This document shows, in pieces, positions 9,256 through 42,422 of a DNA stretch of 56,869 nt (position 1 is the stretch's first letter; every line of letters begins with the position of its first letter). The stretch spans positions 1 through 56,869 of the forward strand of contig NZ_JASAOI010000049.1 of NCBI RefSeq assembly GCF_029953285.1. The letters run 5' to 3'. The stretch is from Yinghuangia seranimata. Its GTDB lineage: Bacteria > Actinomycetota > Actinomycetes > Streptomycetales > Streptomycetaceae. The translations under genes were made by a program, and so were the position numbers. Under the pieces are notes generated by a model. The model ran no database searches and was not told the origin of the DNA. It worked only from the letters and a program-made list of their open reading frames with translations.

Positions 9256-9270
9256 CTGACACACCGTCAT
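9256..9270. promoter_or_regulatory. Operator site A (CTGAC-N5-GTCAT)
   Basis: Sequence CTGACACACCGTCAT, one arm mismatch from the shared dyad. It lies between the divergent acyl-CoA dehydrogenase (start 9175) and acyl-CoA synthetase (start 9368), so it can control both. Confidence 0.6.
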
Positions 9271-9367
9271 ATCATGCGAACATCGCCTTCATCACACCCT
9301 TGGACCGTGGTGCGCGGAGCCCCTTCCGTGCTGTGCTCAAAGGGGAAGCCTGGCAGGAGGAGTCCTG

Positions 9368-10900
9368 ATGACCGTAGTGGCCGCAGTGTTGCGGGAGGCC
9401 GCGCGGCGCTTTCCCGAGCGCCGGGCGCTGGTCCAGGGCGGCACGGCGTTCACGTACGCGGGCCTGGACGCGGTGACCGACCAGGTCGCCGCCGGGCTGG
9501 CGAAGCGGGGGGTCCGTGCGGGCGACCTCGCGGCGCTCGTCCTGCCCACCGGCCCCGAGTACGTGGTGGCCTACCTTGCGCTCGCCCGGCTGGGAGCGGT
9601 CACCACCGGCGTCGGCCCGCGCTACACCGCCGACGAGCGCGCTCGGGTGCTGGCGCAGGCGAAGCCCGAGCTGGTGATCGCCACCGAGGAGCTGGCGGAG
9701 GGCGTCCCCGGCGGCGCCGAGCTGCTGCGCTGCGTGCCGGCGAAGACGGCCTACGAGGTGTGGGGCGACCTGCGCCTGGACGCGATCCCGCCGGCCCCGC
9801 AGGTCACCGGCGTGACCGACCCCGACCTGCCCGAGACGGTCGTGTTCACGTCGGGCACCACCGGCGTGCCCAAGGGCGCGCTGTTCACGTCGCGGCAGAT
9901 CGCGGCGATCACCGAGATGGACACCGGCGGCCGGTGGGGCGAGGGCGGCCCGCAGCTGGTCGCGACCGGCCTGCCGCACGTCGGGTTCATGGCCAAGCTG
10001 GCGGGCTACCTCAAGCTCGGCGCCACCATGCACCTGCTGGGGCGGTGGCGGGCCGAGGACGCGCTGCGGATCGTGGCCCGCGAGCGCATCCCGTACATCG
10101 GCGGCGTCGCGGCGCAGATCTCGCTGCTGCTGCGCCGTCCCGAGTTCGACTCGTACGACTTCTCGTGCGTGAAGGGCCTGATCGTCGGCGCCGGCCCGTC
10201 CCCGGCGCCGACCGTCCGCGAGGCGCGCGAGCGCTTCGGGGCCGGGTACTCGATCCGCTACTCGATGACCGAGTCCGGCGGCCTCGGCACGCTCACGTCC
10301 TTCGACGCACCGGAGGACGAGGCCCTGCACACCGTCGGGCGCCCCCGCCCCGGCACCGAGCTGGAGATCCGCGATCCGGAGACCGGCAAGGCGCTGGCAC
10401 AGGGCGAGGCCGGGCAGATCTGCCTGCGAGCCGCCTCGGTGATGGCCGGATACTGGCGCAACCCCGAGGACACCGCGAAGGCGCTCGACCCGCAGGGGTG
10501 GCTGCGCACGGGTGACCTCGGGCTGATCGACGGAACCGGCTGTCTGCGCATCACCGGCCGGATCTCCGACATGTACATCCGCGGTGGCTACAACGTCTTC
10601 CCGCTCGAGGTCGAGTCCGTCCTGCTGGCGCACCCGGGGGTGGCGTCGGTCGCGGTGGCGCCGCGGCCGAGTGCGGTGATGGGCGAGATCGGCGTCGCGG
10701 TCGTGGTGCCGAGGGCCGACGCCCCGACGCCCACGCTGGAGGACCTGAGGGCTTTCGCGGCACCGCGCCTGGCGGCGTACAAGCTGCCCGAGGCGCTGCG
10801 GATCGTGGACGAGTTGCCGCTCACCGGAATGGACAAGGTCGATCGCAAGGCGCTCGCTGACCGCGAGCGGCGGCTCGATGGAGAGACGCGAGCGCCGTAG
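9368..10900 (+). CDS. AMP-forming acyl-CoA synthetase (FadD-like)
   Basis: An adenylate-forming ligase of 510 residues that would activate a carboxylic acid to its CoA thioester. The ATP/AMP motif 'FTSGTTGVPKGA' is at about residues 159-170. The adenine-site motif 'YSMTESG' follows at about 299-305, and 'GRISDMYIRGGYNVFPLEVE' starts the C-terminal lid near residue 397. The conserved lysine in 'MDKVDRKAL' is close to the end. The start has an excellent AGGAGG-type site just upstream. It is a single-gene unit divergent from an acyl-CoA dehydrogenase with a shared operator. Among known enzymes it is closest in style to the FadD ligases of steroid clusters, but chain specificity cannot be read here. 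Confidence 0.88.
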   Translation: MTVVAAVLREAARRFPERRALVQGGTAFTYAGLDAVTDQVAAGLAKRGVRAGDLAALVLPTGPEYVVAYLALARLGAVTTGVGPRYTADERARVLAQAKPELVIATEELAEGVPGGAELLRCVPAKTAYEVWGDLRLDAIPPAPQVTGVTDPDLPETVVFTSGTTGVPKGALFTSRQIAAITEMDTGGRWGEGGPQLVATGLPHVGFMAKLAGYLKLGATMHLLGRWRAEDALRIVARERIPYIGGVAAQISLLLRRPEFDSYDFSCVKGLIVGAGPSPAPTVREARERFGAGYSIRYSMTESGGLGTLTSFDAPEDEALHTVGRPRPGTELEIRDPETGKALAQGEAGQICLRAASVMAGYWRNPEDTAKALDPQGWLRTGDLGLIDGTGCLRITGRISDMYIRGGYNVFPLEVESVLLAHPGVASVAVAPRPSAVMGEIGVAVVVPRADAPTPTLEDLRAFAAPRLAAYKLPEALRIVDELPLTGMDKVDRKALADRERRLDGETRAP

Positions 10901-11042
10901 CCCGGCGCCGCGAAAGACGATCCTCCGGTTTGGAACACCCTCCTGACCGGCGGCTTCATCGAAAAATATTGACCAAGTCACCAGAAATCCCCATGATCGG
11001 ACAGATATGCGAGACCACGGGGGGATGAGACGGTAGACAGTC

Positions 11043-11057
11043 CTGACGTCCCATCAG
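11043..11057. promoter_or_regulatory. Operator site B1 (CTGAC-N5-ATCAG)
   Basis: CTGACGTCCCATCAG, one mismatch from the dyad. It is 23 bp centre-to-centre from site B2, about two helical turns, so two dimers could sit on one DNA face upstream of the NDP-forming synthetase. Confidence 0.45.
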
Positions 11058-11065
11058 CAAGCTAA

Positions 11066-11080
11066 CTGACTGACCGTCAG
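11066..11080. promoter_or_regulatory. Operator site B2 (CTGAC-N5-GTCAG)
   Basis: CTGACTGACCGTCAG, with both arms perfect. It lies 45 bp before the start of the NDP-forming acyl-CoA synthetase at 11126 and in its only plausible promoter region. Confidence 0.7.
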
Positions 11081-11125: not shown

Positions 11126-13348
11126 ATGCTTCGTGACAGCAGGGAACAGCACGCTCCGGGACACGCCCGTACCGGTTCCGCGAGCGCATTGGGCTCCATG
11201 AGCCCGGTCAAGTCGGTCGACCCGGCACTGCCGGTCGACGTCACCGGCCGGCCGCTCATGCTGCGGCCCGCCGACCTGGACCGGTTCTTCCGGCCGCGCA
11301 CCGTCGCCGTCATCGGCGCCTCCGACACCGAGGGCCGCCCCGGTGCCCGCATCACCGCGCAACTGCGGGCCTGGTCCGAGCGGGTCGGGGCGACGATGTT
11401 CCCGGTCAACCCCAAGCACGCGGTCATCGGCGGCCAGGTGTGCCACCCCGACATCGCCTCCGTACCGGAGGTCGTCGACCTCGCGGTGATCCTGGTGGGC
11501 GACCCGCAGGAGGTCCTCGCCGACCTCGCCGCGGCCGGGGTGTCCTTCGCGGTGGTGTTCGCGGCCGGGTTCGCCGAGTCGGGTGCGGCCGGAGCCGAAG
11601 CACAGGCGCGGCTCACGGAGTTGATCGACGGCGGACCGCTGCGGCTGCTCGGTCCCAACACCAACCTCAACGCCTTCGAGGAGTTCCGCACCGACCTCGA
11701 CGGCAAGTCGATCGCGCTCATCACACAGAGCGGCCACCAGGGCCGCCCGGTGTTCGCGTCCCAGGAGATCGGCATCAAGGTCTCGCACTGGGCGCCGGTC
11801 GGGAACGAGGCGGACCTCGAAACCGCCGACTTCATCCGGTACTTCGCCGACCAGCCCGAAGTCGGCGTGATCGCCTGCTACATCGAGGGCTTCAAGGACG
11901 GGCGCACCTTCGCGCTCGCCGCCGACCACGCGGCGCAGCAGCGCAAGCCGATCGTGATGGTCAAGGTCGGACGCACCGAATCCGGCGCGAAGATGGCCGC
12001 GTCGCACACCGGAAAGCTCACCGGCCAGGACCGCGTCGCGTCGGCCGTGTTCCGGCAGTTCGGCGTCACCCGCGTCGACGGCCTGGACGAACTCATCGAC
12101 ACGTCCCAGATGTTCGCGCGCACCAGCCGCCCGAAGGCGGACGGCGTGTGCGTGTACTCCATCTCGGGCGGCACCGGCGCGCACATGGCCGACCTGGCCG
12201 CCGCCCAGGGCCTGTCGCTTCCGCAACTCGCGCCCGGCACACAGGAGTCGCTGCGCGAGTGGATCCCCGGTTACCTCACCATCTCGAACCCGGTCGACAA
12301 CGGCGGACACCCCGCCGGCGACGAACGCGGCCGCAAGATCATCGACGCGATCCTCGCCGACCCGAACATCGGCGTGCTCGTCTGTCCCATCACCGGCGCG
12401 TTCCCGCCCATGAGCGACAAGCTCGCGCAGGACCTGGTCGACGCGGCGGAGGCGACGGACAAGGTCGTGTGCGTGATCTGGGGCTCGCCGGTCGGCGACG
12501 AGTCCGCGTACCGCGACATCCTGCTCAAGTCGAGCCGGATCGTGGTCTTCCGGACGTTCGGCAACTGCGTCACCGCGCTCCGGGCCTACTTCGACTACCA
12601 CCGCTTCCGCGACAACTACACCCCGCCGTTCGACGACGTCGCGCGCACGGCCTCCCCGGCCGCCGCCAAGGCGCGCCGGCTGCTCACCACCGGCAAGCCG
12701 CTGTCGGAGCACTCCGCCAAGCAGCTGCTGCGCACGTACGGCATCCGCGTCCCGCGCGAGCAGCTGGTCACCTCGGCCGCCGCCGCGGTACGCGCCGCCG
12801 GCCTCATCGGCTACCCCGTGGTGATGAAGGCCTGCGCGCCGCAGCTGCCGCACAAGAGCGACCTCGGGCTGGTCAAGCTGGGCCTGCGCTCGGCGAGCCA
12901 GGTGCGCGACGCGTACCGCGAGATCGTCGACGCGGCGCGCGACAACGGCGCCGGGCGCCTCGAAGGCGTGCTGGTGTGCCAGCAGGTCGACAAGGGCGTC
13001 GAGATGGTCGTCGGGATCGCCCACGACGAGCTGTTCGGGCCCACCGTCACGGTCGGCCTCGGCGGCATCTTCGTGGAGGTCTTCGACGACATCGCCATCG
13101 GCGTGCCGCCGTTCGGCCCGTACGAGGTGCGCCGCATGCTCGGCGAGCTGCGCGGCCTCAAGTGCCTGCAGGGCCTGCGCGGGCAGCCCGCCGCCGACCT
13201 CGACGCCCTCGTCGACGTCGTGATGCGGGTCCAGCGCATGGCCCTCGAGCTCGGCGACGACCTGGCCGAACTCGACATCAACCCGCTGATGGTCATGCCG
13301 CGCGGCGGCGGAACCGTCGCCCTGGACGCGCTCGCGATACCCAAGTGA
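11126..13348 (+). CDS. NDP-forming acyl-CoA synthetase (acetate-CoA ligase family)
   Basis: A 740-residue fused alpha-beta enzyme of the NDP-forming acyl-CoA ligase family. These enzymes interconvert acyl-CoA plus NDP and phosphate with the free acid, NTP and CoA. The order is CoA-binding domain ('RTVAVIGASDTEGRPG' near residues 58-73), ligase-CoA domain, then an ATP-grasp domain from about 520. The phosphohistidine region is 'MAASHTGKLTG' at about 290-300. The ATP-grasp part contains 'YPVVMKACAPQLPHKSD'. A Met at residue 25 is an alternative start because the upstream SD is weak. It precedes an enoyl-CoA hydratase by 75 nt and the two form one unit under operators B1/B2. Acyl substrate unknown. 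Confidence 0.85.
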   Translation: MLRDSREQHAPGHARTGSASALGSMSPVKSVDPALPVDVTGRPLMLRPADLDRFFRPRTVAVIGASDTEGRPGARITAQLRAWSERVGATMFPVNPKHAVIGGQVCHPDIASVPEVVDLAVILVGDPQEVLADLAAAGVSFAVVFAAGFAESGAAGAEAQARLTELIDGGPLRLLGPNTNLNAFEEFRTDLDGKSIALITQSGHQGRPVFASQEIGIKVSHWAPVGNEADLETADFIRYFADQPEVGVIACYIEGFKDGRTFALAADHAAQQRKPIVMVKVGRTESGAKMAASHTGKLTGQDRVASAVFRQFGVTRVDGLDELIDTSQMFARTSRPKADGVCVYSISGGTGAHMADLAAAQGLSLPQLAPGTQESLREWIPGYLTISNPVDNGGHPAGDERGRKIIDAILADPNIGVLVCPITGAFPPMSDKLAQDLVDAAEATDKVVCVIWGSPVGDESAYRDILLKSSRIVVFRTFGNCVTALRAYFDYHRFRDNYTPPFDDVARTASPAAAKARRLLTTGKPLSEHSAKQLLRTYGIRVPREQLVTSAAAAVRAAGLIGYPVVMKACAPQLPHKSDLGLVKLGLRSASQVRDAYREIVDAARDNGAGRLEGVLVCQQVDKGVEMVVGIAHDELFGPTVTVGLGGIFVEVFDDIAIGVPPFGPYEVRRMLGELRGLKCLQGLRGQPAADLDALVDVVMRVQRMALELGDDLAELDINPLMVMPRGGGTVALDALAIPK

Positions 13349-13423: not shown

Positions 13424-14296
13424 ATGAGCACCACCCCCGACACCGAGGCCGCCCCCGAGCCCGAGCTGCTCCACCGCATCGAGAACGGTGTGCTGTGGAT
13501 CACCCTCAACCGCCCCAAGGCCAGCAACGCCATCACCTGGGACCAGCGCGAGACGATCATCGCGCTGCTCGGCGAGGCCTCGGCGAACGAGGCCGTGCGC
13601 GCGGTCGTCCTCGGTGCGGCGGGGGCCAAGCACTTCTGCACCGGCATGGACCTGCGCAGCTCGCCCGGCACCAAGTCGCTCCTCGCGGACGCCGCGCCCG
13701 CCGAGGACGGCGCGCCCAAGCCGCCGGAGCGGCCGACCGGCTACGCGTCGCGCATGATGAAGAACGGTGTGCTGCGCCTGACCACCGCGGTCCTGGAGTG
13801 CGAGAAGCCGGTCATCGCGGCGATCAACGGCACCACGGCCGGCTACGGCATGAGCCTCGCGCTGGCCTGCGACCTGGTGATCTCGGCGCAGAGCGCCCGG
13901 TTCATCCAGATCTTCACGCGCCGCGGCCTCATCCCGGACGGCGGCAGCGCGTACCTCCTGCCGCGCCTGGTCGGGCCACAGAAGGCCAAGGAGCTGATGT
14001 TCTTCGGCGACGACCTGCCCGCCGACGAGGCGTACCGGATCGGCGTCGTCAACAAGGTGGTCGCGGACGACGAGCTGCAGGCCACCGTCAAGGAGTGGGC
14101 CGAGCGCCTGGCCACCGGGCCGACGCGCGCGCTGGCCATCACCAAGCGCCTGGTCAACCGCTCGCTGGACAGCGACCGGGCGACGTCCTTCGGCGAGGAG
14201 GCGGACTCCGTCGAGCTGAACATGACCACGCGCGACGCCAACGAGGGCGTCGCGAGCCTGATCGAGCGCCGCAAGCCGGAGTACTACGGCTGGTGA
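13424..14296 (+). CDS. Enoyl-CoA hydratase/isomerase family protein
   Basis: A 290-residue crotonase-fold protein that would hydrate or isomerise an enoyl-CoA in the second step of beta-oxidation. Recognisable parts are 'LWITLNRPKASNAI' near residue 25, the first oxyanion-hole region 'KHFCTGMDLR' near 68, and the second, 'INGTTAGYGMSLALACDLV', near 135. The insert between the two, rich in Pro, Ala and Asp, is longer than in the classical enzyme. GAGAGGAACC sits upstream of the start. It is the last gene of the operon that begins with the NDP-forming synthetase and is followed by a strong hairpin. Confidence 0.85.
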   Translation: MSTTPDTEAAPEPELLHRIENGVLWITLNRPKASNAITWDQRETIIALLGEASANEAVRAVVLGAAGAKHFCTGMDLRSSPGTKSLLADAAPAEDGAPKPPERPTGYASRMMKNGVLRLTTAVLECEKPVIAAINGTTAGYGMSLALACDLVISAQSARFIQIFTRRGLIPDGGSAYLLPRLVGPQKAKELMFFGDDLPADEAYRIGVVNKVVADDELQATVKEWAERLATGPTRALAITKRLVNRSLDSDRATSFGEEADSVELNMTTRDANEGVASLIERRKPEYYGW

Positions 14297-14424: not shown

Positions 14425-14439
14425 CTGACTGAGCGTCAG
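14425..14439. promoter_or_regulatory. Operator site C (CTGAC-N5-GTCAG)
   Basis: CTGACTGAGCGTCAG, both arms perfect, 158 bp upstream of the flavin reductase start and downstream of the previous terminator. Confidence 0.7.
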
Positions 14440-14596: not shown

Positions 14597-15106
14597 ATGG
14601 GCCAGCTCGACGCTCCCGCCGTCGACCCCGCCGCGTTCCGGCACGTGCTCGGGCACTTCTGCAGCGGCGTCACGATCATCACCGCCGTCGACGGCGACGA
14701 CCCGGTGGGCTTCGCCTGCCAGTCCTTCTCGTCCCTGTCGCTCGACCCGCCGCTGGTGACCTTCTTCGTCGCCAAGACGTCGACGACCTGGCCGCGCATA
14801 CAGCCGGGCGGCAAGTTCTGCGTCAACGTGCTGGCCGACGACCAGGAGCAGCTCTGCCGCGGCTTCGCGGTCAGCGGCGCCGACAAGTTCGCGGGCGTCG
14901 CCCACAAGCCCGCCCCGGTCACCGGCTCGCCGCTCCTCGAGGGGACGCTGGCGTACATCGACTGCACCCTGGAGCAGGTCGTGGACGGCGGCGACCACGA
15001 GATCGTCGTCGGCCGCGTGCAGGCCCTGGAAGCACCGCGTGACGACGCGGGCCCGCTGCTGTTCTACAAGGGCAAGTTCGGCCACCCCGCCCAGAACGCC
15101 GACTGA
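14597..15106 (+). CDS. Flavin reductase, HsaB-like
   Basis: A 169-residue flavin reductase that would use NAD(P)H to reduce FMN or FAD for a partner monooxygenase. The sequence follows the HsaB pattern closely, for example 'FRHVLGHFCSGVTIIT' at residues 14-29, 'VGFACQSFSSLSLDPPL' at about 39-55, and 'GTLAYIDCTLE' in the C-terminal half. HsaB of actinobacteria supplies reduced flavin to the HsaA hydroxylase in steroid A/B-ring degradation. No HsaA-type oxygenase is present in this window, so its partner must lie elsewhere. It stands alone under operator C. The family is clear; a role in steroid breakdown is inference. Confidence 0.85.
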   Translation: MGQLDAPAVDPAAFRHVLGHFCSGVTIITAVDGDDPVGFACQSFSSLSLDPPLVTFFVAKTSTTWPRIQPGGKFCVNVLADDQEQLCRGFAVSGADKFAGVAHKPAPVTGSPLLEGTLAYIDCTLEQVVDGGDHEIVVGRVQALEAPRDDAGPLLFYKGKFGHPAQNAD

Positions 15107-19032: not shown

Positions 19033-20100
19033 TCAGAAGACGAACACGCCGCGGGCGACCTTGCCGGCCTCCGCGTCCTCCACCGCGTGGTGGAAGTCGT
19101 CCAGCGCGTAGGTCTGGGTCACCAGCTCGTCGAGCTTGAGGGCGCCGGTGCCGTACAGGTCGGCGTAGCGCGCGATGTCGTACTGCGGGCGGGAGGAGCC
19201 GTAGCGGCAGCCCATGATGCTCTTGTCGAGGAACATCGACGAGACGTGGAAGGACGCCTCCGCGTCGGACGGGGCGACGCCGAGAATGACGGCCTGGCCG
19301 GCGCGGCCGAGCATGTCGATGGCGTTGCGGATGACCGCGACGTGGCCGACGCACTCGAAGGCGTGGTCGACGCCGCCGGGGACGAGCTCCTGGACGGCCT
19401 TGACCGAGCTCTCGACGGCCTTGGCGTCCACGAAGTCGGTGGCGCCGAACTCGCGGGCCACGGCCTCCTTCGCCGGGTTGGCGTCGACGGCGACGATCTT
19501 GACGGCGCCGGCCAGCTTGGCGGCCTGGATGACGTTGAGGCCGATGCCGCCGGTGCCGATGACCGCGACGGTGTCGCCCGGCTGCACCTTGGCCCGGTTG
19601 AGGACGGCGCCGACGCCGGTGAGGACGCCGCAGCCGATGAGCGCCGCGGACGCCATCGGGATGGACTTGGGGATCTTGACCGCCTGGACGCCCTTGACGA
19701 CGATCCGCTCGGCGAAGACCGACAGGCCCGCGAAGTTGTAGACCGGCTTGCCGTCACGCGTGAACGGCTGGTTGAGCTGCCCGAAGCTCTTGACGCACAT
19801 GGTCGGACGCCCGCGGTCGCACTCGCGGCACGCGCCGCACGCGGCGAGCGTAGACAGCGCGACGTGGTCGCCCGGCTTGACGTGCGTGACCAGCTCGCCG
19901 ACGGCCTCGACGACGCCCGCGCCCTCGTGCCCGAGCACGACCGGCGGCGGGAACGGGATGGTGCCGTTGATGACGCTGATGTCGGAGTGGCACAGGCCGG
20001 CCGCGCCGATCTTGACGAGGACTTCGTTCGGCCCGGGGTCGCGGACCTCGAGGTCGTCGACTACGAGGGCTTCCTTGCCGTCGAACAGAACGCCTTTCAC
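19033..20100 (-). CDS. Zinc-dependent alcohol dehydrogenase (MDR family)
   Basis: A 355-residue medium-chain dehydrogenase that oxidises an alcohol or reduces an aldehyde with a nicotinamide cofactor. Catalytic zinc ligands are Cys37 in 'GLCHSD' and His58-Glu59 in 'GHEG'. The structural-zinc lobe has Cys88, Cys91, Cys94 and Cys102. The dinucleotide motif 'VIGTGGIGLN' follows near residue 185. The GTG start at 20098-20100 has GGAGGAG a few bases upstream, whereas the longer frame has no such site. Operator D lies 91 bp upstream, which joins the gene to the acyl-CoA regulon. It may oxidise a side-chain alcohol to the aldehyde. Confidence 0.87.
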   Translation of the reverse strand: MKGVLFDGKEALVVDDLEVRDPGPNEVLVKIGAAGLCHSDISVINGTIPFPPPVVLGHEGAGVVEAVGELVTHVKPGDHVALSTLAACGACRECDRGRPTMCVKSFGQLNQPFTRDGKPVYNFAGLSVFAERIVVKGVQAVKIPKSIPMASAALIGCGVLTGVGAVLNRAKVQPGDTVAVIGTGGIGLNVIQAAKLAGAVKIVAVDANPAKEAVAREFGATDFVDAKAVESSVKAVQELVPGGVDHAFECVGHVAVIRNAIDMLGRAGQAVILGVAPSDAEASFHVSSMFLDKSIMGCRYGSSRPQYDIARYADLYGTGALKLDELVTQTYALDDFHHAVEDAEAGKVARGVFVF

Positions 20101-20190: not shown

Positions 20191-20205
20191 CTGACGATGA
20201 GTCAG
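20191..20205. promoter_or_regulatory. Operator site D (CTGAC-N5-GTCAG)
   Basis: CTGACGATGAGTCAG with perfect arms, 91 bp upstream of the alcohol dehydrogenase start codon. Confidence 0.7.
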
Positions 20206-24362: not shown

Positions 24363-24545
24363 GTTCTGCCCCTTCGGATCGGCCTGCGACATGCCCGCGC
24401 GGACACTGTCCAACGGCCCTGTTGGTCCCTAGCATGGTCGCCGTACCGGGCGCGTGCCCGAGCCCGAGGCCCGGCCGTAGCCAAGCCCGCGGCCGGTCCG
24501 CCGCCAAGATCGACGCCATGTGAGAACTGCCTCTCCCGACAGTAT

Positions 24546-24560
24546 CTGACGGTACGTTAG
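24546..24560. promoter_or_regulatory. Operator site E (CTGAC-N5-GTTAG)
   Basis: CTGACGGTACGTTAG, one mismatch, 54 bp upstream of the cyclase-family gene and 184 bp from the divergent short-chain dehydrogenase. Confidence 0.6.
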
Positions 24561-28483: not shown

Positions 28484-28519
28484 CGGGCCGTCGAGGAAAC
28501 CGAGAGAAGAACCCCGACG

Positions 28520-30707: not shown

Positions 30708-30723
30708 CGCGGAAGGAGCTTCG

Positions 30724-31851
30724 ATGGACCTCGAATTCAGCGACGAGCAGGAAGTCCTCCGCGAGACCGTGCGCGGCCTCGCCGCACGGCACGCCGACCT
30801 CGGCGTCGTGCGCGCGATGGAGGACGACGAGAAGGGCTACCCGGCCGACTTCTGGGCCAAGCTCGGCGAGAGCGGCCTGACCGGGCTCACCATCCCGGAG
30901 AAGTGGGGCGGCTCGGAGATGTCGTTCCTGGACGCGGTCGTCGTCTACGACGAACTCGGCCGCGCCCTGTCCCCGTCCCCGCACTTCGTCAGCTCGGTCG
31001 TCGCGGGCGGCGTGCTGACGGCCGCGGGCAGCGACGAGCAGCGCCAGGAGTGGCTGCCCAAGATCGCCTCCGGCGAGGCCGTGGTGACCACCGGGTGGCT
31101 CGAGCCCGACCGTGGCTTCGGGCCCAAGGGCGTCGCGCTGGCCGCCACGCCGGACGGCGACGGGTGGCTGCTCACCGGCACCAAGCGGCATGTGCCGTAC
31201 GCCGATTCGGCCGACCGCGTGCTGGTGCTCGCGCGCACCGGCGGCGAGCCGACCGACGTCACGCTGTTCCTGGTCGACCCGGCCGCGGACGGCGTCACGC
31301 TCACCGCGCAGCGCACGGTCGCGTCCGACGTGCAGCACCGCCTCGACCTGGCCGGCGTCCGCGTCGGCCCGGACGACGTCGTGGGCACCGTCGGCGGCGG
31401 CTGGCCGGTGTGGTCGGACGTCCTGCACGACGGCGTCATCCTGCTGGCCGCCCAGGCCGTCGGCGGCGCCCGGCGGGTGCTGGAGATCACCGTCGAGTAC
31501 GCCAAGACCCGCAAGCAGTTCGACAAGCCGCTGGGCGCCTTCCAGGCGATCGCCCACGACCTGTCGGACGCGGTCACCGCCGTCGACGGCGCCGAGACCC
31601 TCGTGTGGGAGGCGGCGTGGGCGCGCGACACAGGGCGCGGCGTCGAGAAGCTCGCGCCGATGGCCAAGCTGTTCGCGTGCAAGACCTACCGTGAGGTCAG
31701 CGACCTCGCGGTGCACGTGCACGGCGGCATGGGCTTCACCGTCGAGTGCGACGTCCAGCTGTTCTTCCGGCGCGCCAAGTCCCTTCAGCTGAACTGGTGG
31801 GACGACCGCTACCTGGAGGAACTCGTGGCGGCGCAGCTCCTGGACGCCTGA
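30724..31851 (+). CDS. Acyl-CoA dehydrogenase (small-subunit type)
   Basis: A 375-residue dehydrogenase closing the operon. It has 'MDLEFSDEQEVLRETVRGL' at the N-terminus, a shortened flavin-binding region ('WLEPDRGFGPKG' where others have 'SEPGAGSDL'), and the C-terminal 'VHVHGGMGFTVECDVQLFFRRA'. This is the pattern of the partner subunits in heterotetrameric dehydrogenases, where one subunit has lost part of the FAD site. It begins 16 nt after the hydratase with GGAAGGAG before the ATG. Pairing with the first gene of the operon is inferred. Confidence 0.86.
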   Translation: MDLEFSDEQEVLRETVRGLAARHADLGVVRAMEDDEKGYPADFWAKLGESGLTGLTIPEKWGGSEMSFLDAVVVYDELGRALSPSPHFVSSVVAGGVLTAAGSDEQRQEWLPKIASGEAVVTTGWLEPDRGFGPKGVALAATPDGDGWLLTGTKRHVPYADSADRVLVLARTGGEPTDVTLFLVDPAADGVTLTAQRTVASDVQHRLDLAGVRVGPDDVVGTVGGGWPVWSDVLHDGVILLAAQAVGGARRVLEITVEYAKTRKQFDKPLGAFQAIAHDLSDAVTAVDGAETLVWEAAWARDTGRGVEKLAPMAKLFACKTYREVSDLAVHVHGGMGFTVECDVQLFFRRAKSLQLNWWDDRYLEELVAAQLLDA

Positions 31852-35459: not shown

Positions 35460-36446
35460 CTACAGCGTCGCCGCCAGTGCTTCCTCGTTCTCCTCGGCGC
35501 CGCCGAACTGGGTGGCGTGCACCCAGGCGCGCTTGAGGTACAGGTGGACGTCGACCTCCCAGGTGAAGCCCATGCCGCCGTGCACCTGGGTGGCGTCCTT
35601 GCCGTTGCGGGTGGCCGCGTCGTCCGCCATCAGCTTGGCGGCGGGGACGGCCACGGCGAGGTCGCCGACGACCGGGTCGTCCAGCGTGACCGCCGCGGAG
35701 TACACGGCCGCACGCGCGATCTCGGTGCGCACCAGCATCTCGGCGCACAGGTGCTTGACCGCCTGGAAGCCGCCGATGACGCGCCCGAACTGCTCGCGCT
35801 CCTTGGCGTACTGGGTCGCCAGCTCGGTCAGCCGGCCCGCGATGCCGAGCTGCACCGCCGCGGTCAGCACGGCGCCCTCGCGGCGGAAGCGGGCGGCGGT
35901 GTCGGCGTCGCCGACGCGGGTGCCCTCCGGCAGCGCCTCGACGTGGTGCAGCGGTGTGAACGGGTCGACGGGGTTCTTGACCGCCGTGCCGGACACGGAC
36001 GACGGCGCAACCCGGCGGATGCCGTCCTCGTCCAGGACGAGCAGGACGTCGAGGACGTCGAGGTGCTCGACCAGGATCGGGCTGTCCTCCGCGTCCACGA
36101 CGCCGACGATCAGCTCACCGGACGCGGCCCCCGCGCCCAGGTCGCCGCCGAGCGACGCGGCCAGGTGCGTGGCCACCAGGGGCCCGGGCAGCAGCACGCG
36201 CCCGGCCTCCTCGTACACCAGCACCGCCTCGGCGCTGCCGAGCCCCACGCCGCCCTCGGCCTCGGGTACGCGCAGGCTGAAGAAGCCCGTCTCGGCGAGC
36301 TCGGTCCACAGCGCGCGGTCGACCATGCCGGGCACGCGGTTCTTGTCGACCAGGTCGCGCATGCGGTCGCGGTCGAACCGGCCCTCGCAGAACTCGCGGA
36401 CGCCGGTGGCCAGGTCGCGCTGGTCTTCACTGAGCTGAAAGTCCAT
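35460..36446 (-). CDS. Acyl-CoA dehydrogenase, short small-subunit type
   Basis: A 328-residue dehydrogenase, about 50 residues shorter than usual. The missing part is in the middle beta domain: after 'LGAGAASGELIVGVVDAEDSP' the FAD-binding 'SEPGAGSDL' element is absent. The C-terminal helices are complete, with 'QYAKEREQFGRVIGGFQAVKH' and 'QVHGGMGFTWEVDVHLYLKRA'. Partner subunits of heterotetrameric FadE enzymes show similar losses. The ATG overlaps the stop of the upstream large-subunit gene by 1 nt (TGATG), which supports a fixed complex. Third gene of the operon controlled by operator G. Confidence 0.85.
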   Translation of the reverse strand: MDFQLSEDQRDLATGVREFCEGRFDRDRMRDLVDKNRVPGMVDRALWTELAETGFFSLRVPEAEGGVGLGSAEAVLVYEEAGRVLLPGPLVATHLAASLGGDLGAGAASGELIVGVVDAEDSPILVEHLDVLDVLLVLDEDGIRRVAPSSVSGTAVKNPVDPFTPLHHVEALPEGTRVGDADTAARFRREGAVLTAAVQLGIAGRLTELATQYAKEREQFGRVIGGFQAVKHLCAEMLVRTEIARAAVYSAAVTLDDPVVGDLAVAVPAAKLMADDAATRNGKDATQVHGGMGFTWEVDVHLYLKRAWVHATQFGGAEENEEALAATL

Positions 36447-37633
36447 CAGCGTTCCTTCGGCAGGCCGAGGATGCGCTCCCCGACGATGTTGCGCTGGATC
36501 TGCGAGGTGCCCGCGGCGATCGTGTACGACAGCGACGAGAGCCGCTCGTCCATGAGGTGGCCGCTGGGCAGGCCCGCGACGTCCTCGACGCACAGCGCGG
36601 CGCGGTCGAGCAGCCGGTGCGCGAGGTCGTAGACCTTCTGCTTGGTCTCGGAGAACCGCAGCTTGAACACGGACCCGCCGATGCCCGGCACGCCGGAGCG
36701 CGAGGCCTCGGAGACGTTCCACTTGGTGAGCGCCCACAGCGCCTCGAACTCGGCGGTGAGGTGCCCGAGTTCGCGGCGCAGCGCGACGTCGTCCCACGCG
36801 GTGGCCTGGCGCCGGGTGACCTTCTTGGCCAGTTCCGCCAGGTCGTGCAGCAGCTTCTGGCACGCGACGACCTCGCTGACGAACGCGGTGCCGCGCTCGA
36901 AGGACAGCGTGACCATGGTGACGCGCCAGCCGTCGTTCTCCTCGCCGACCCGGTTGCCGACCGGGACACGCACGTCGTCGAAGAACACCTCGGCGAACTC
37001 GGAGGTCCCCATCACGGTCTCGAGCGGCCGGATGGTGATGCCGGGGGTGTCCATCGGGACGATCAGCCAGGTGATGCCCTTGTGCTTGGGCGCGTCCGGG
37101 TCGGTGCGCACGAGCATCTCGCAGTAGTCCGCGACCTCGGCGTGCGACGTCCAGATCTTCGACCCGTTGATGACGTACTCGTCGCCGTCACGCACCGCGC
37201 GGCAGCGCAGCGACGCCAGGTCGGAACCGGCGCCCGGCTCGGAGAAGCCCTGGCACCACACGTCCTCGCCGGACAGGATGCCCGGCAGGTACTTGCGGCG
37301 CTGCTCGTCGCTGCCCGCGGCGTTGATCGTCGGGCCGGCGTGCAGCAGACCGACGAAGTTGGCGCCGACGTACGGCGCGCCCGCGCGCTCGCTCTCCTCG
37401 AGGTAGATCAGGTGCTCGGTCGGGGTGGCGCCCTTGCCGCCCGCCTCGACCGGCCAGTGCAGGCCCGCGTAGCCGGCGTCGAAGAGCATGCGCTGCCACG
37501 TGGTGTCGTACGCGCGGCGGCCCGGCCAGTCGTTGCGGTCCGGCTTCGGCGGCAGCTTGGGCAGCGCCTCGTCGAGCCAGGCGCGCAGTTCGGCGCGGAA
37601 GCGCTCTTCCGCCTCGGTGTACCTGAGGTCCAT
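36446..37633 (-). CDS. Acyl-CoA dehydrogenase, large-subunit type
   Basis: A 395-residue dehydrogenase with all the usual elements: 'WCQGFSEPGAGSDLASLRCRA', 'KIWTSHAEVADYCEML', the probable catalytic Glu in 'LSFERGTAF', and 'AAGTSQIQRNIVGERILGLP' at the end. It is coupled to the short dehydrogenase downstream and probably forms an alpha2-beta2 enzyme with it, like ChsE4-ChsE5 (FadE26-FadE27). The start chosen gives the standard N-terminus 'MDLRYTEAEERFRAEL'; a 24-residue extension is Arg-rich and unlikely. It follows the short-chain dehydrogenase by 31 nt. Confidence 0.87.
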   Translation of the reverse strand: MDLRYTEAEERFRAELRAWLDEALPKLPPKPDRNDWPGRRAYDTTWQRMLFDAGYAGLHWPVEAGGKGATPTEHLIYLEESERAGAPYVGANFVGLLHAGPTINAAGSDEQRRKYLPGILSGEDVWCQGFSEPGAGSDLASLRCRAVRDGDEYVINGSKIWTSHAEVADYCEMLVRTDPDAPKHKGITWLIVPMDTPGITIRPLETVMGTSEFAEVFFDDVRVPVGNRVGEENDGWRVTMVTLSFERGTAFVSEVVACQKLLHDLAELAKKVTRRQATAWDDVALRRELGHLTAEFEALWALTKWNVSEASRSGVPGIGGSVFKLRFSETKQKVYDLAHRLLDRAALCVEDVAGLPSGHLMDERLSSLSYTIAAGTSQIQRNIVGERILGLPKER

Positions 37634-37664
37634 GTCTGCCAGGTCCCTTCGGGTCGTCCGCGGC

Positions 37665-38570
37665 TCAGGCGCCGTAGACCGGCGTCGGGGTCGGCGCCTC
37701 GTCAATGAGCTTGGCGACGACGGGGCCCAGCTCGGCCGGGTTCCAGCGGCGCCCCGCGGTGGCCTCGGGGCCGTGCTGCCAGCCGATCGCGACGGAGACC
37801 TTGTCGCCCTCGACCTCGAAGCAGCGGCCGGTGACGTCCTTGGACTCGGCGGAGCCGAGCCACACGACGAGCGGCGAGACGTTCGCCGGGTCGTAGAAGT
37901 CGAAGGAGCCGTCGGTGGGCGCGGCGACCATGTCGGGCATGGCCTCCTCGGTCATGCGGGTGCGCGCGGCGGGGGCGATCGCGTTGACGGTGACGCCGTA
38001 GCGGCCGAACTCGACGGCGGCGATCTGGGTCAGCGTGAGGATGCCGCCCTTGGCGGAGGCGTAGTTGCCCTGGCCGACCGAGCCCATGAGGCCGGCGCCG
38101 GAGCTGGTGTTGATGACGCGGCCGTCGATCGGGTTGCCGGCCTTGGCCTGCTCGCGCCAGTACGCGCCGGCGTGGCGCATGGTCGCGAAGTGGCCCTTGA
38201 GGTGCACGCGGATGACGGCGTCCCACTCGGCCTCGCTGAGCGAGACGAGCATGCGGTCGCGCAGGAAGCCCGCGTTGTTGACCAGGACGTCCAGGCGGCC
38301 GAAGGTGTCGATCGCGGTCTGGACGAGGCGGCCGGCGCCCTCCCAGTCGGCGACGTCGTCGGAGTTGATGACGGCCTTGCCGCCCATTGCGACGATCTCG
38401 TCGACGACCTGCTGGGCCGGGCCGGGCGAGCGGCCGTCGCCCTGCCGCGACGCGCCGATGTCGTTGACGACCACGTGCGCGCCTTCGCGCGCGAACGCCA
38501 GCGCGTGCTCGCGCCCGATGCCGCCGCCGGCACCGGTGACGATGACGACGCGTCCCTCGCAGATACCCAT
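37665..38570 (-). CDS. Short-chain dehydrogenase, MFE-2/17beta-HSD4-like
   Basis: A 301-residue dehydrogenase opening the three-gene operon. It has 'VTGAGGGIGREHALAFA' at about residues 11-27, the MFE-2-type 'VVVNDIGASRQGDG' insert, 'NNAGFLRDRM', and the catalytic 'NYASAKGG' near 177. Its pattern resembles the HSD4A/ChsB1-type dehydrogenases of steroid side-chain degradation, which oxidise the hydroxyacyl-CoA made by the hydratase. The C-terminal 50 residues ('WQHGPEATAGRRWNPAELGPV') form the extra tail typical of this branch. Operator G lies 65 bp upstream. Confidence 0.86.
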   Translation of the reverse strand: MGICEGRVVIVTGAGGGIGREHALAFAREGAHVVVNDIGASRQGDGRSPGPAQQVVDEIVAMGGKAVINSDDVADWEGAGRLVQTAIDTFGRLDVLVNNAGFLRDRMLVSLSEAEWDAVIRVHLKGHFATMRHAGAYWREQAKAGNPIDGRVINTSSGAGLMGSVGQGNYASAKGGILTLTQIAAVEFGRYGVTVNAIAPAARTRMTEEAMPDMVAAPTDGSFDFYDPANVSPLVVWLGSAESKDVTGRCFEVEGDKVSVAIGWQHGPEATAGRRWNPAELGPVVAKLIDEAPTPTPVYGA

Positions 38571-38634: not shown

Positions 38635-38649
38635 CTGACGACTAGTCAA
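38635..38649. promoter_or_regulatory. Operator site G (CTGAC-N5-GTCAA)
   Basis: CTGACGACTAGTCAA, one mismatch, in the promoter of the minus-strand operon that starts at 38570. Confidence 0.6.
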
Positions 38650-38717: not shown

Positions 38718-39959
38718 CTACTTGTCGAAGTCCAGGTTGAGCATCCGGATCGCGTTGCCGCGGATGATCTTGTAGACGGTCTCCTTGTCGAGGCCCGCCA
38801 GGTGCTCCTCGGCGATCTTCTTGGTGTGCGGCCAGGTCGAGTCGACGTGCGGGTAGTCGGTCTCGAAGGTCACGTTGTCCACGCCGATGGCGTCGAGCGA
38901 GTTGACGCCGTGCTGGTCGCGGAAGAAGCACGCGTACATGTTCTGCCGGAAGTAGAACGACGGGCGCTCGGCCAGGCCGTCGCCGACACCGGCCCAGGCG
39001 CGGTGCTCCTCCCACACGTCGTCCATGCGCTCGAGCGCGTAGGGGATCCAGCCCATCTGGCCCTCGGAGTAGGCCAGCTTGAGCTTCGGGAAGCGCGCGG
39101 GGATGCCGGCGAAGATGAAGTCCGCCATCGACGCCATCGCGTTGTTGAAGCTCAGCGACGCCTGGACGGCCGCGGGCGCGTCGGGGGACGCGGCGGGCAT
39201 CGTCGACGAGGAGCCGATGTGCATGTTGATGGTGACGCCGCGCTCCTCGCAGATGCGGAAGAACGGGTCCCAGTAGCCGGTGTGGATGCTCGGCAGGCCC
39301 AGGAACGCCGGGATCTCCGAGAAGCACACGGCGGTGACGCCGCGGTCCGCGTTGCGGATGATCTCGGCGACCGCGAGGTCGACGTCCCAGAGCGGGATGA
39401 TGATCAGCGGGATCAGACGGCCGCCCGAGTCACCGCACCACTCCTCGACCATCCAGTCGTTGTAGGCGCGGACGCACGCGAGCGCGACCTCCTTGTCCTT
39501 CGCCTCGGAGAAGGTCTGGCCGCAGAAGCGCGGGAAGGTCGGGAAGCAGAGGGAGGCCTCGACATGGTTGATGTCCATGTCCTTCAGGCGCTCCTTCGGG
39601 TCGTACAGACCCGGGCGCATCTCCTCGCGGGTGATGCCCTCCAGCGTCATCTGGTCGCGGCTGAAGCCGACGGCCGCGATGTTCCGCTTGTACGGGAAGC
39701 GCAGGTCCTCGTAGAACCACCAGTCCGCGAGCGGCCCGTCCGGGTCGGTCGTGATCTTGTAGCTGGCGCCGGTGTACTCCAGCTGCCCGATACCGGTCTG
39801 GACGTGCTTGGGACCCCGGTCGTGGTACTTGGCCGGCAGCCAACGCTCGAACAGGTGCGCCGGTTCGATGACGTGGTCATCGACACTGATGATCTTCGGG
39901 AGTTCCCCGAAGCTGTTGCCGGACTCGGTGGCGTCCTGCTCGTGCAGGTTGGCGCTCAT
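38718..39959 (-). CDS. Amidohydrolase-2 family metal-dependent hydrolase
   Basis: A 413-residue TIM-barrel hydrolase or decarboxylase of the amidohydrolase-related family. The first metal site 'ISVDDHVIEP' is at about residues 24-33. The barrel His is in 'INMHIGSSS' near 239-247. The Asp/His end is 'FETDYPHVDSTWP' near 362. Homologues in aromatic and steroid gene clusters include C-C hydrolases and decarboxylases, so a carbon-carbon cleavage is possible. The gene is divergent from the cysteine-hydrolase homologue, with two operator copies in the 96 nt between them, and ends in its own hairpin. Confidence 0.83.
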   Translation of the reverse strand: MSANLHEQDATESGNSFGELPKIISVDDHVIEPAHLFERWLPAKYHDRGPKHVQTGIGQLEYTGASYKITTDPDGPLADWWFYEDLRFPYKRNIAAVGFSRDQMTLEGITREEMRPGLYDPKERLKDMDINHVEASLCFPTFPRFCGQTFSEAKDKEVALACVRAYNDWMVEEWCGDSGGRLIPLIIIPLWDVDLAVAEIIRNADRGVTAVCFSEIPAFLGLPSIHTGYWDPFFRICEERGVTINMHIGSSSTMPAASPDAPAAVQASLSFNNAMASMADFIFAGIPARFPKLKLAYSEGQMGWIPYALERMDDVWEEHRAWAGVGDGLAERPSFYFRQNMYACFFRDQHGVNSLDAIGVDNVTFETDYPHVDSTWPHTKKIAEEHLAGLDKETVYKIIRGNAIRMLNLDFDK

Positions 39960-39981: not shown

Positions 39982-39996
39982 CTGATGGACCGTCAG
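39982..39996. promoter_or_regulatory. Operator site H (CTGAT-N5-GTCAG)
   Basis: CTGATGGACCGTCAG, one mismatch, 23 bp upstream of the amidohydrolase start. Confidence 0.65.
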
Positions 39997-40031: not shown

Positions 40032-40046
40032 CCGACGGTCCGTCAG
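40032..40046. promoter_or_regulatory. Operator site I (CCGAC-N5-GTCAG)
   Basis: CCGACGGTCCGTCAG, one mismatch in the left arm, 10 bp before the start codon at 40056; it runs into the SD sequence GGAGG. Its centre is 50 bp from that of site H. Confidence 0.65.
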
Positions 40047-40055: not shown

Positions 40056-40673
40056 ATGGCACTCGATATGGGTACGTTGCTCGCACCGCGCACGACCGCC
40101 CTGGTCACCCAGGAATGCCAGAACGGCGTGATCGGGAAGGACGCCGTCTTCCCCGCCCTCGCCGAGCAGACCCAGGGTCTGATTCCGGCCATCGACGGGC
40201 TGTGTCGCGCCGCACGCTCCGCCGGCGTCCCCGTCCTGCACTGCCTCGCCCTGCGGCGCGCCGACGGCCAGGGCGCGAACCGCAACGCCCGCATGTTCGG
40301 CGCCGCCGCCAAGGCGCCCGTGCAGCTGCTGCCCGGCTCCGTGGCGGCCGAGGTCGCCGAAGGCATCGAAGTGGCCGAATCCGACCTCGTCCTGACGAGG
40401 TATCACGGACTGGGACCGATGGCCGATACCGGGCTCGCGGCGGTCCTGCGCAACCTCGGCGTCACCACGGTCGTCGGCGTCGGGGTGTCGCTCAACGTCG
40501 GGATGCTCAACTTCGCGATGGACGCCGTCAACGCCGGCTTCCAGTTCGTCGTACCGCGCGAGGCGGTGGCCGGCTTCCCCGCCGAGTACGCCGAGGCGGT
40601 GCTCGCCAACACCCTCGGCGCTGTGGCGACGATCACCACCGCGGCCGAGGTGACGGCGGCCTGGACCCGCTGA
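40056..40673 (+). CDS. Isochorismatase/cysteine-hydrolase homologue lacking the catalytic triad
   Basis: A 205-residue Rossmann-like protein of the isochorismatase/nicotinamidase superfamily. By alignment to the family pattern all three catalytic residues are changed. The N-terminal Asp is Glu20 ('VTQECQNG'), the Lys is Arg115 ('LVLTRYHG'), and the nucleophilic Cys is Gly149 ('SLNVGMLNFAMDAV'). The fold-determining residues around them are kept, including the 'VVGVGV' strand and 'DAVNAGF'. It therefore cannot act by the normal thiol mechanism. It may be a binding protein, a regulatory subunit or an enzyme with another chemistry. GGAGG stands before the ATG, and operator I overlaps this region. 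Confidence 0.82.
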   Translation: MALDMGTLLAPRTTALVTQECQNGVIGKDAVFPALAEQTQGLIPAIDGLCRAARSAGVPVLHCLALRRADGQGANRNARMFGAAAKAPVQLLPGSVAAEVAEGIEVAESDLVLTRYHGLGPMADTGLAAVLRNLGVTTVVGVGVSLNVGMLNFAMDAVNAGFQFVVPREAVAGFPAEYAEAVLANTLGAVATITTAAEVTAAWTR

Positions 40674-40687
40674 CCGAGCACACGACG

Positions 40688-40723
40688 ACGGGCGGCCCCG
40701 GGGACTCCCCCGAGGCCGCCCGT
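40688..40723. terminator. Bidirectional hairpin between convergent genes
   Basis: ACGGGCGGCC (40688-40697) pairs with 40714-40723, and the stem continues inward with one mismatch. It lies between the stops at 40673 and 40755. Confidence 0.75.
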
Positions 40724-40754
40724 TCGCGTGTGTCAGACCGTCAGCTCAGCCGCG

Positions 40755-42317
40755 TCAGCGCTGCGGCGCCCACGGCTTCGCGTTGTACTCGTCGCGGATC
40801 TTGAACTTCAGCACCTTGCGCAGCGTCTCGTTGCGCGGCAGCGCGTCCACGACCTCGAGCTGCTCCGGGATCTTCTGCACCATCAGGCTCGCGTCCTTCA
40901 GGTACCGCACCATCTCGTCGAACTCCAGGTCGGGCTGCCCCGGCTGACGCTCCACCACCGCGCACACGCGCTCGCCCCGCTCGCGGTCGGTCAGGCCGAC
41001 CACGGCGACGTCGGCGACCTTCGGGTGCGCGAACAGCAGGTCCTCGATCTCGCGCGCGGAGATGTTCTCGCCCTTGCGGATGATGACGTCCTTCAGGCGG
41101 CCGGTCAGCGACAGGTGGCCGTCCGTGCGCAGCTTGCCCAGGTCGCCGGTGCGGTAGAAGCCGTCCTCGTCGAACGCCTCCTTGGTCAGCTCCGGGTCCG
41201 TGTAGCCCTTGAAGACCATCGGGCCGCGCAGCCGGACCTCGCCCTCCTCGTCGGGGCCGGCCACCGTGCCGTCCGCGCGCACGATGCGCACCTCGATGCC
41301 GTGCACCGGCTTGCCCTCGGAGAACTTCAGCTGGTCCGGGGTGTCGTTCGGGCCGCCCTGCGCGATCATCGGCGACTCGGTCATGCCGTAGCCGTGGCAC
41401 AGCACGGCCTGCATCTCGTCGACGACCTCGTGGTACAGCTCCGGCGGCTTGGGCGCGCCGCCGCCGGACACGATGCGCAGCGACGGGATGATCTTCTCGC
41501 CGGGCTGCTTGCGCTGCTCGTTGAGGAACGCGACGTAGAACGCCGGGCCGCCGCCGACCATCGTGACGCCCAGGCGCGCGTACACCGGGATGACGCCTGC
41601 CGGGTCGAACGTCTCGATGATGACCGCCGGGAAGCCGGTGATCAGCAGCGTGTTCACGTAGTCCGGGCCGGCGATGTGCGCGTACGGGAAGGCGATCGAG
41701 CCGATGTCGGTCTCGGCCATGTCCAGCGCCTTCGCCAGGCCCAGGCCGCCCGCGATCAGCGTGCCGTCGGTGTGCTGCACACCCTTCGGGTCGGACGTCG
41801 TGCCGGACGTGTAGTACAGCCACCGCACCTCGTCGCCGTCGGTCGGCGCCGGCGGCAGCGTCGCCGGGTCACCCTCGGGCAAGCTGTCGTACGCGCTCAA
41901 CACGGTGAGCCCGCCGGGCAGTTCCTTGCCCAGCGCCTCGCCCATGGCGACGAAGTCGAAGCCCTTCCAGGTGCCGGGCGTCAGGTAGAACTCGGCGCCG
42001 GTCTGGCGCAGGCAGAACCCGACCTCCTTCTCCCGGTAGAACGGGATGATCGGGTTCTGGACCGCGCCCAGGCGGGCCAGCGCGGTCGCCGCGACGATCG
42101 ACTCGATCCGCGTCGGCAGCTGCCACGTCACGCGCGTGCCGGCCGTGATGCCCAGCGCGTGGTACCCGGCCGCGACCCGCTCCGCCCACGCCTTGAACTC
42201 CCCGAACGTGACCCTGCGGTCCTCCGGGTCGAGCAGCATCGGGGTGTCGGGCGAGGCCGCGGCCCGGCGCTCGACCAGCTCCCAGAGCGTCGCGGCGTCG
42301 TAGATCGGATCAGACAC
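40755..42317 (-). CDS. AMP-forming acyl-CoA synthetase (cyclohexanecarboxylate-CoA ligase-like)
   Basis: A 520-residue adenylate-forming ligase. The ATP motif is 'YYTSGTTSDPKGVQHT' near residue 180, the adenine motif 'GYGMTESPM' near 310, and the lid motif 'GRLKDVIIRKGENISAREIE' near 408. The final catalytic-lysine region is 'LPRNETLRKVLKFKIR'. The 'SDPKGV' variant and general look recall the medium-chain and alicyclic acid ligases. The GTG at 42315-42317 has GGAGGG upstream, while the longer frame is unsupported. Operator J, the most symmetrical of the set, lies about 90 bp upstream. Confidence 0.87.
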   Translation of the reverse strand: MSDPIYDAATLWELVERRAAASPDTPMLLDPEDRRVTFGEFKAWAERVAAGYHALGITAGTRVTWQLPTRIESIVAATALARLGAVQNPIIPFYREKEVGFCLRQTGAEFYLTPGTWKGFDFVAMGEALGKELPGGLTVLSAYDSLPEGDPATLPPAPTDGDEVRWLYYTSGTTSDPKGVQHTDGTLIAGGLGLAKALDMAETDIGSIAFPYAHIAGPDYVNTLLITGFPAVIIETFDPAGVIPVYARLGVTMVGGGPAFYVAFLNEQRKQPGEKIIPSLRIVSGGGAPKPPELYHEVVDEMQAVLCHGYGMTESPMIAQGGPNDTPDQLKFSEGKPVHGIEVRIVRADGTVAGPDEEGEVRLRGPMVFKGYTDPELTKEAFDEDGFYRTGDLGKLRTDGHLSLTGRLKDVIIRKGENISAREIEDLLFAHPKVADVAVVGLTDRERGERVCAVVERQPGQPDLEFDEMVRYLKDASLMVQKIPEQLEVVDALPRNETLRKVLKFKIRDEYNAKPWAPQR

Positions 42318-42407
42318 GTGCCCTCCACGTGAGGATGTTTCGCCCGGACCGGCGGCCGCGCCGGCGCACCGCGGGGAACCGCCGGGGCGCGCGCACGACA
42401 TGCCGAC

Positions 42408-42422
42408 CTGACGGTACGTCAG
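42408..42422. promoter_or_regulatory. Operator site J (CTGAC-N5-GTCAG)
   Basis: CTGACGGTACGTCAG with perfect arms, upstream of the minus-strand acyl-CoA synthetase and 99 bp from the divergent Rieske gene. Confidence 0.75.

Follow-up and report, generated by a model that had tools for sequence, protein, structure and literature searches.

Which protein reads the palindrome CTGAC-N5-GTCAG that recurs between the genes of a 56,869-nucleotide stretch of Yinghuangia seranimata DNA (NZ_JASAOI010000049.1, hereafter the window)? The window, contig C30 in a genome of 9.8 Mb, belongs to the Streptomyces family (family f1), in which the S. coelicolor BldD sequence matches 12 of 13 genomes at 90–98%. 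A sequence-only reading had counted eleven copies of the palindrome in it and ascribed them to a regulator encoded elsewhere. A TetR protein with a TetR_C_38 domain is the most likely candidate for this regulator. Judging from sequence comparison, it is highly probable that the palindrome, with its GGWCC-like centre, is the operator of this protein, a probable ortholog of Sco4385 of Streptomyces coelicolor, which would repress catabolic clusters and itself until a metabolite releases it. The sites, their placement in promoters, their conservation and their association with the TetR gene across families are all seen directly in the DNA.

Genome-wide, the exact palindrome occurs 110 times, against 3 times for the reversed pattern. 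Open reading frames (ORFs) were called throughout with a home-made caller trained on the window, and by this caller the non-coding share is about 17% in an 800-kb sample (contigs C22, C98 and C40 of the window's genome). The sequence-only reading had named, as the outcome that would undo it, a motif as common in unrelated genes as in promoters; the motif survived this check, with 82 of the 110 exact copies outside called ORFs and 61 of these no more than 250 bp from a called gene start. In the 800-kb sample, seven exact copies were intergenic, whereas 59 permuted arms averaged 0.14 and never exceeded 1, and spacings of 0 to 11 other than five yielded 0–1 exact intergenic copies each. Intergenic copies with one mismatch numbered 26, compared with a mean of 4.3 (maximum 12) for the permuted arms and 5–14 for the same arms at other spacings. 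Copies with two mismatches were not enriched in the window (39 observed, 36.9 expected), so the claim rests on the exact and one-mismatch copies. The median distance from site centre to gene start was 90 bp, for 71 site–gene pairs at 20–200 bp.

We compared the window's genome with G148, a genome of the same genus, and G018, a complete Streptomyces-type genome; site placement was read for 30 of the 92 sites in G148 (plus 80 kb of its cluster). Copies inside genes all stand in frame 0 and encode Leu-Thr-x-x-Gln (19 of 19 read in G148, 8 of 8 in G018), and they look like a codon effect. Composition or codon usage could thus generate the in-gene copies, but it accounts for these only, as most exact copies lie outside ORFs, where other arms and spacings are unenriched; that the palindrome as a whole is such a by-product is scarcely conceivable. 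The palindrome also fits the loose consensus of the BldD box, TNAC-N5-GTNA (PMC4151990), BldD is encoded in the window's genome, and a GGDEF gene stands behind one site, so the sites could be BldD boxes with a link to cyclic di-GMP. However, of 16 XTNAC arms CTGAC alone is enriched between genes (7 copies, against 0–1 for each of the other 15), and the box in the BldD crystal DNA carries TCAC arms (PMC4151990). We rejected a BldD regulon because the degenerate TNAC arms are not enriched and the CTGAC arm alone is, which leaves this explanation extremely improbable.

Conservation of the arms was read at a divergent promoter between acyl-coenzyme A (acyl-CoA) dehydrogenase and thiolase-like genes, for which 80 Streptomyces loci were taken and 14 were unreadable. 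A one-mismatch site was kept in 66 of the 66 readable loci, compared with 2 of 66 for the runner-up among 60 arm permutations. The arms were at least 95% identical and most flanking columns varied. At a second divergent pair, outside the window (L041), an exact site is present in all three genomes compared.

The TetR gene and its own copy of the palindrome

The sequence-only reading had proposed a search for a regulator gene preceded by the motif, and the TetR_C_38 gene is such a gene. That reading had the regulator encoded elsewhere, and it does lie outside the window, on contig C29 of the same assembly at 91475–92122 (L384:11475–12122), behind a short-chain dehydrogenase/reductase (SDR) gene. 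It is not remote in general: in G148 about 2 kb separate it from the ortholog of the acyl-CoA dehydrogenase at window 8018–9175, and the regions matching the window cluster and part of C29 adjoin each other. The promoter of the SDR–TetR operon holds an exact site, common to a divergent enoyl-CoA hydratase gene, and a second site with one mismatch spans the start codon of the TetR gene itself. The TetR gene of the G018 cluster likewise has CTGACGGCATGACAG spanning its start codon.

This arrangement is widespread. All 41 Streptomyces-family genomes sampled had a TetR ortholog, 40 of them with a single match, and the 15-mer CTGACGGCATGACAG, a one-mismatch copy of the palindrome (with one base changed in one locus), spanned the TetR start in 30 of 30 family loci examined. 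In other families, with TetR identities of 37–57%, 14 of 19 loci had an exact or one-mismatch intergenic site no more than about 350 bp upstream of the TetR gene. Altogether a site stands at or near the TetR gene in five families (in f13, at two of five loci). None of 17 other TetR genes of the window's genome had a site within 300 bp upstream of its helix-turn-helix, a search span different from that used for the orthologs. The start region of the TetR gene (L270–L299) is nearly invariant across genera, and a TAAACT-like hexamer six bases 5' of the ATG suggests a leaderless transcript.

TetR genes standing beside exact sites at L065, L082 and L096 were also considered as the cognate regulator and dropped; tblastn at 1e-5 matched none of them to the final candidate. 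About two TetR neighbours of sites are expected by chance, given 100 site-side genes, an assumed total of about 8,500 genes and at least 150 TetR genes.

The protein itself reads as a TetR regulator. TetR_C_38 matches the window-genome protein at 3.2e-62, and TetR_N reaches 26.7 bits in the G018 ortholog (cut-off 24) and, just under the cut-off, 23.1 bits in the window-genome ortholog. The stretch TFYQYF in the region of the recognition helix is identical in all 21 orthologs listed. Among sequence matches in the PDB (22 at E up to 0.01), EthR was best (4.9e-6). The best fold matches of the modelled all-helical protein were TetR repressors, EthR first (7e-5), but these ranks carry little weight because the AlphaFold model has low confidence (mean predicted local distance difference test score, pLDDT, of 69).

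Across 148 genomes of the class, we compared the presence of this TetR, scored absent where no match at E 1e-20 was found, with matches of CTGACG-N4-GTCAG summed over both strands. All 24 genomes with at least 13 motif matches carry the TetR gene, and no more than 12 occur in any of the 118 genomes that lack it. With f1 and f13 left out, the association held (Mann–Whitney p = 4e-7, a statistic that ignores shared ancestry), and within family f14 the seven TetR-bearing genomes had 16–34 matches, compared with 2–3 in the two genomes without it. One genome of family f4 (G031) has a TetR ortholog with one in-frame TGA (L422) and a motif count at background.

Gene order ties the protein to a described regulator. 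Sco4385 is a dimeric, previously uncharacterized TetR protein, highly conserved in Streptomyces and encoded beside sco4383, a 4-coumarate-CoA ligase gene, and sco4384, an enoyl-CoA hydratase gene (2025, PMC12093943); SCO4387 is a PNPOx homolog (PMC3215729). In G018 an AMP-binding ligase, an enoyl-CoA hydratase, the TetR protein and a PNPOx protein follow one another in the order of the sco4383–sco4387 landmarks, although, unlike there, additional genes lie between them. This matching order makes it likely that the TetR here is the Sco4385 ortholog. It is similarly conserved (84–99% across nine genomes of genus g2), and the G018 protein has 23.3 kDa, against 24.69 kDa for tagged Sco4385 (PMC12093943). 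With the PB4 primers flanking the SV1 attB, used to ask whether the G018 ligase gene corresponds to SCO4383, that gene was not located. In its main text the Sco4385 study names no palindrome. The 23-bp consensus given there was derived from two foreign antibiotic gene clusters and reportedly has no match free of mismatches in the genome of the host; the study states that this may not be the genuine recognition sequence (PMC12093943). An orphan, widely conserved Streptomyces regulator would thereby gain the concrete operator and target list that its published study left open.

Several observations pull the other way. No site was found beside the TetR ortholog in three of five f13 loci or in those of families f4 and f22, and 6 of the 30 TetR-bearing genomes have background motif counts (G089, 12; G132, 11; G056, 10; G011, 8; G022, 4; G031, 1). 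Because the self-site overlaps codons and carries one mismatch, its conservation may owe something to coding constraint. The start of the operon's first gene is covered by a site as well, so a mere member of the regulon could give the same pattern. We looked for operators overlapping −10 hexamers and could not show such overlap (best offset, 5 of 70 site–gene pairs). In the 66-locus comparison a TTAG stretch 3' of the site was also conserved, and just two of the five centre bases varied. A called stop codon lies inside 16 of the 82 exact copies that are outside ORFs, compared with 202 of 3060 random intergenic positions (6.6%; TGA is part of the motif), and 21 of the 82 lack a called start in the surrounding 250 bp, so that some copies in this genome may be gene-end elements. 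About half of a hand-picked set of downstream genes has no obvious catabolic role. Finally, binding, repression and the nature of the ligand are inferred from sequence.

Two other readings draw on these points. The palindrome could belong to another regulator, with the TetR gene only one of its targets; this would suit the operon site that the TetR gene shares with the SDR gene in the window's genome, and a set of targets that is about half non-catabolic would be expected of a global regulator. Against it stand the site at or near the TetR gene in five families, within f1 even where the upstream neighbour differs, and the way in which TetR presence follows motif count across the 148 genomes, f14 included. 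We consider this reading unlikely. The sites could also be RNA hairpins, whether bidirectional terminators or stop-codon hairpins, as their arms can pair and stop codons lie inside 16 of the 82 copies just mentioned. The 5.1-Mb genome G085 (family f13; loci L160–L189) contains the palindrome 473 times; of 30 copies read, 16 were outside ORFs and 9 of those 16 held a gene stop codon, a placement that would suit a stop or terminator hairpin. Yet the conserved cluster copies in the window's genome, G018 and G148 sit in promoters, often divergent or in tandem, and none of the eleven window copies first described is at a convergent gene end, which makes a hairpin role very improbable as a general account.

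Proposed mode of control

TetR proteins are commonly dimers that bind short palindromes and act as repressors. On that pattern, a TetR dimer would bind palindromes, with the predicted site CTGACGGTCCGTCAG, in the promoters of the catabolic clusters of the window and C29 and of scattered single genes, and would repress these clusters together with its own gene. A pathway metabolite would then bind the protein and release it from the DNA; the likeliest ligand would be a degradation product, cyclic terpenoid or steroid-type, in the form of its CoA thioester. Dimer binding, autoregulation and release by a CoA thioester are suggested here by analogy with KstR.

Mycobacterial KstR is an autoregulated TetR dimer with a short palindrome in many, often divergent, promoters of lipid and steroid catabolism, two copies in one of them, as proposed here (PMC1995591). 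Its operator is a different one: CTGAC-N5-GTCAG lacks the AAC-N2-GTT of the KstR operator TnnAACnnGTTnnA, as the sequence-only reading had noted, and the KstR site lies partly over the −10 region (PMC1995591). The M. tuberculosis KstR2 regulon includes ipdA, ipdB, ipdC and echA20 (PMC5380842), and its content is echoed here by the echA20-, ipdA- and ipdB-like and NMO-domain genes that share a divergent site with the TetR operon. Neither KstR nor KstR2 was named among the 22 PDB sequence matches, several of which bear generic names, and KstR2 was not named among the best 50 fold matches listed, where some names are also generic. According to the sequence-only reading, the published KstR2 operator (CAAG-CTTG type) also differs from CTGAC-N5-GTCAG. 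The TetR-type FadR proteins of Sulfolobus, Bacillus and Thermus share the TetR fold, and acyl-CoA-bound FadR entries stand lower in the fold list than EthR, the best match in both sequence and fold; identities were 13–20% among the EthR and FadR matches listed. Mechanistically, the proposed regulator is KstR/FadR-like.

Literal spellings of the palindrome were not found in the literature searched. A mycobacterial motif X linked with Rv0767c is given as a figure only in the reports concerned (PMC6593523, PMC4482099) and hence is not comparable with the palindrome.

Probable operator copies in the window and their counterparts

All eleven copies first described were found in place, in nine promoter regions, outside called ORFs and no more than about 165 bp from a called start. 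The tally of six perfect and five mismatched copies needed correction: both arms are perfect in five (11066, 14425, 20191, 27214 and 42408), and a single arm mismatch is present in six (9256, 11043, 24546, 38635, 39982 and 40032). The earlier list also lacked an exact copy at 46750 and one-mismatch copies at 27129 and 27308, which flank 27214; the copy at 27308 falls within the gene if a longer start, 27251, is taken. In total, the window holds 16 copies with at most one mismatch, 14 intergenic and 2 in genes by our caller, and its tandem operators are spaced 23–50 bp.

G148 orthologs are mostly 73–91% identical to the window proteins. Of ten promoter regions in the window, eight have an exact or one-mismatch site at the G148 counterpart (9256, 11043/11066, 20191, 24546, 27214, 39982/40032, 42408 and 46750). 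In G018, 11 of the 48 exact sites lie within one 62-kb cluster that is partly syntenic with the window (55–76% protein identity). The same promoters keep sites in other genomes while the centres change.

The first operator, CTGACACACCGTCAT (9256–9270, one mismatch), lies in the divergent promoter of an acyl-CoA dehydrogenase (8018–9175, minus strand) and an acyl-CoA ligase (9368–10900, plus strand), and its G148 counterpart is ATGACGGTGTGTCAG at 61334. A pair follows, CTGACGTCCCATCAG (11043–11057, one mismatch) and CTGACTGACCGTCAG (11066–11080, exact), the second upstream of an ATP-grasp CoA ligase (11126–13348, plus); G018 has a pair at 52724 and 52748, and the G148 ortholog a single site at 59573. 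Upstream of an HsaB-like flavin reductase (14597–15106, plus) stands the exact CTGACTGAGCGTCAG (14425–14439), with a site at the G018 ortholog (56012) and none listed at the G148 ortholog. The exact CTGACGATGAGTCAG (20191–20205) lies upstream of a zinc alcohol dehydrogenase (19033–20100, minus), with a G148 counterpart at 52847.

The divergent promoter of an SDR (23439–24392, minus) and a cyclase (24614–25540, plus) contains CTGACGGTACGTTAG (24546–24560, one mismatch), whose odd TTAG arm recurs in G018 (CTGACGGTCCGTTAG, at 65626); the G148 site is CTAACGTACCGTCAG at 49449. Upstream of an acyl-CoA dehydrogenase (27296–28483, plus) is the exact CTGACTGTCCGTCAG (27214–27228; G148, 48152), and the same promoter holds a possible weak operator, CCGACGGGGCGTCAG (27129–27143, one mismatch). 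A further SDR (37665–38570, minus) is preceded by CTGACGACTAGTCAA (38635–38649, one mismatch), with none listed at its G148 ortholog (24113–25018).

Two operators with one mismatch each, CTGATGGACCGTCAG (39982–39996) and CCGACGGTCCGTCAG (40032–40046), precede an amidohydrolase (38718–39959, minus), the second being in the divergent promoter shared with an isochorismatase-like gene (40056–40673, plus); G148 has the pair at 22693 and 22743. The exact CTGACGGTACGTCAG (42408–42422) lies between divergent genes for an acyl-CoA ligase (40755–42317, minus) and a Rieske protein (42540–42947, plus), with counterparts at 20366 in G148 and 71589 in G018. In G018 the orthologs of the amidohydrolase and of this ligase are divergent neighbours, both sharing the sites at 71501 and 71589. 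The last operator, the exact CTGACGGTGCGTCAG (46750–46764), is 58 bp upstream of hemB (45773–46699, minus) and has a G148 counterpart at 15584; hemB encodes delta-aminolevulinic acid dehydratase, and with its conserved exact site it is an odd member for a catabolic regulon.

Probable regulon content and substrates

The copies had been described as uniting acyl-CoA genes into a regulon. A single operator type and a single regulon still describe them, but the downstream genes are not confined to acyl-CoA metabolism. We dropped a purely acyl-CoA regulon because 100 downstream genes spread over 140 Pfam families of at most 3 members each. Thirty of these, hand-picked mostly from outside the window and C29 and sorted by our own judgement, comprised 5 CoA enzymes, 10 other catabolic enzymes or transporters, 12 members of other families and 3 genes without a Pfam match.

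On C29, the site-bearing run at 86993–90504 (L384:6993–10504) that shares the divergent site with the TetR operon consists of echA20-, ipdA- and ipdB-like genes and a gene with an NMO domain (IpdC-like). The echA20-like gene matches PRK07938 above the cut-off, and the ipdA- and ipdB-like genes match PDB entry 6co6 (1e-97 and 4.5e-87) as well as 6coj and 6con, entries whose names read CoA-transferase and which we take to be IpdAB. The C29 cluster also holds a thiolase. An EchA20–IpdA–IpdB–IpdC-like run of this kind is of the steroid C/D-ring type, here in a genome of the Streptomyces family.

Together, the window targets and this run point to ring catabolism of steroid-like or terpenoid compounds. 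Somewhat more speculatively, in the Streptomycetaceae and several other actinobacterial families the catabolism of cyclic terpenoid and steroid-type rings might stand under a single master repressor, this conserved and practically unstudied TetR protein. The ipdABC/echA20 module, which is under KstR2 in mycobacteria, might have passed to it, and its reach might extend to hemB and flavin-dependent oxygenase genes. If the TetR protein does bind the palindrome, uncharacterized catabolic clusters, probably for ring-bearing terpenoid or steroid-like compounds, would come under one switch whose regulator is distinct from mycobacterial KstR.

The catabolic genes of the window begin with the acyl-CoA dehydrogenase at 8018–9175 (minus strand, assigned with Pfam) and the AMP-binding acyl-CoA ligase at 9368–10900 (plus). 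The ATP-grasp CoA ligase at 11126–13348 (plus) is of the ADP-forming type, with a G018 ortholog of 66% identity, and is followed by an enoyl-CoA hydratase (13424–14296, plus) and by the HsaB-like flavin reductase (14597–15106, plus), which scores 216 bits against a cut-off of 230. Another acyl-CoA dehydrogenase lies at 22107–23291 (minus). A run at 27251–31851 (plus) comprises an acyl-CoA dehydrogenase, a CoA-transferase III, a MaoC-like protein (24 bits, under the cut-off of 27) and a second acyl-CoA dehydrogenase, and a run at 35460–38570 (minus) comprises acyl-CoA dehydrogenases at 35460–36446 and 36446–37705 and the SDR at 37665–38570. The AMP-binding acyl-CoA ligase preceded by the operator at 42408 extends over 40755–42467 (minus; 40755–42317 above). 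The amidohydrolase (38718–39959, minus) has DitZ (4e-61) and PtmU3 (6.5e-42) as its best PDB matches, hinting at diterpenoid-type substrates.

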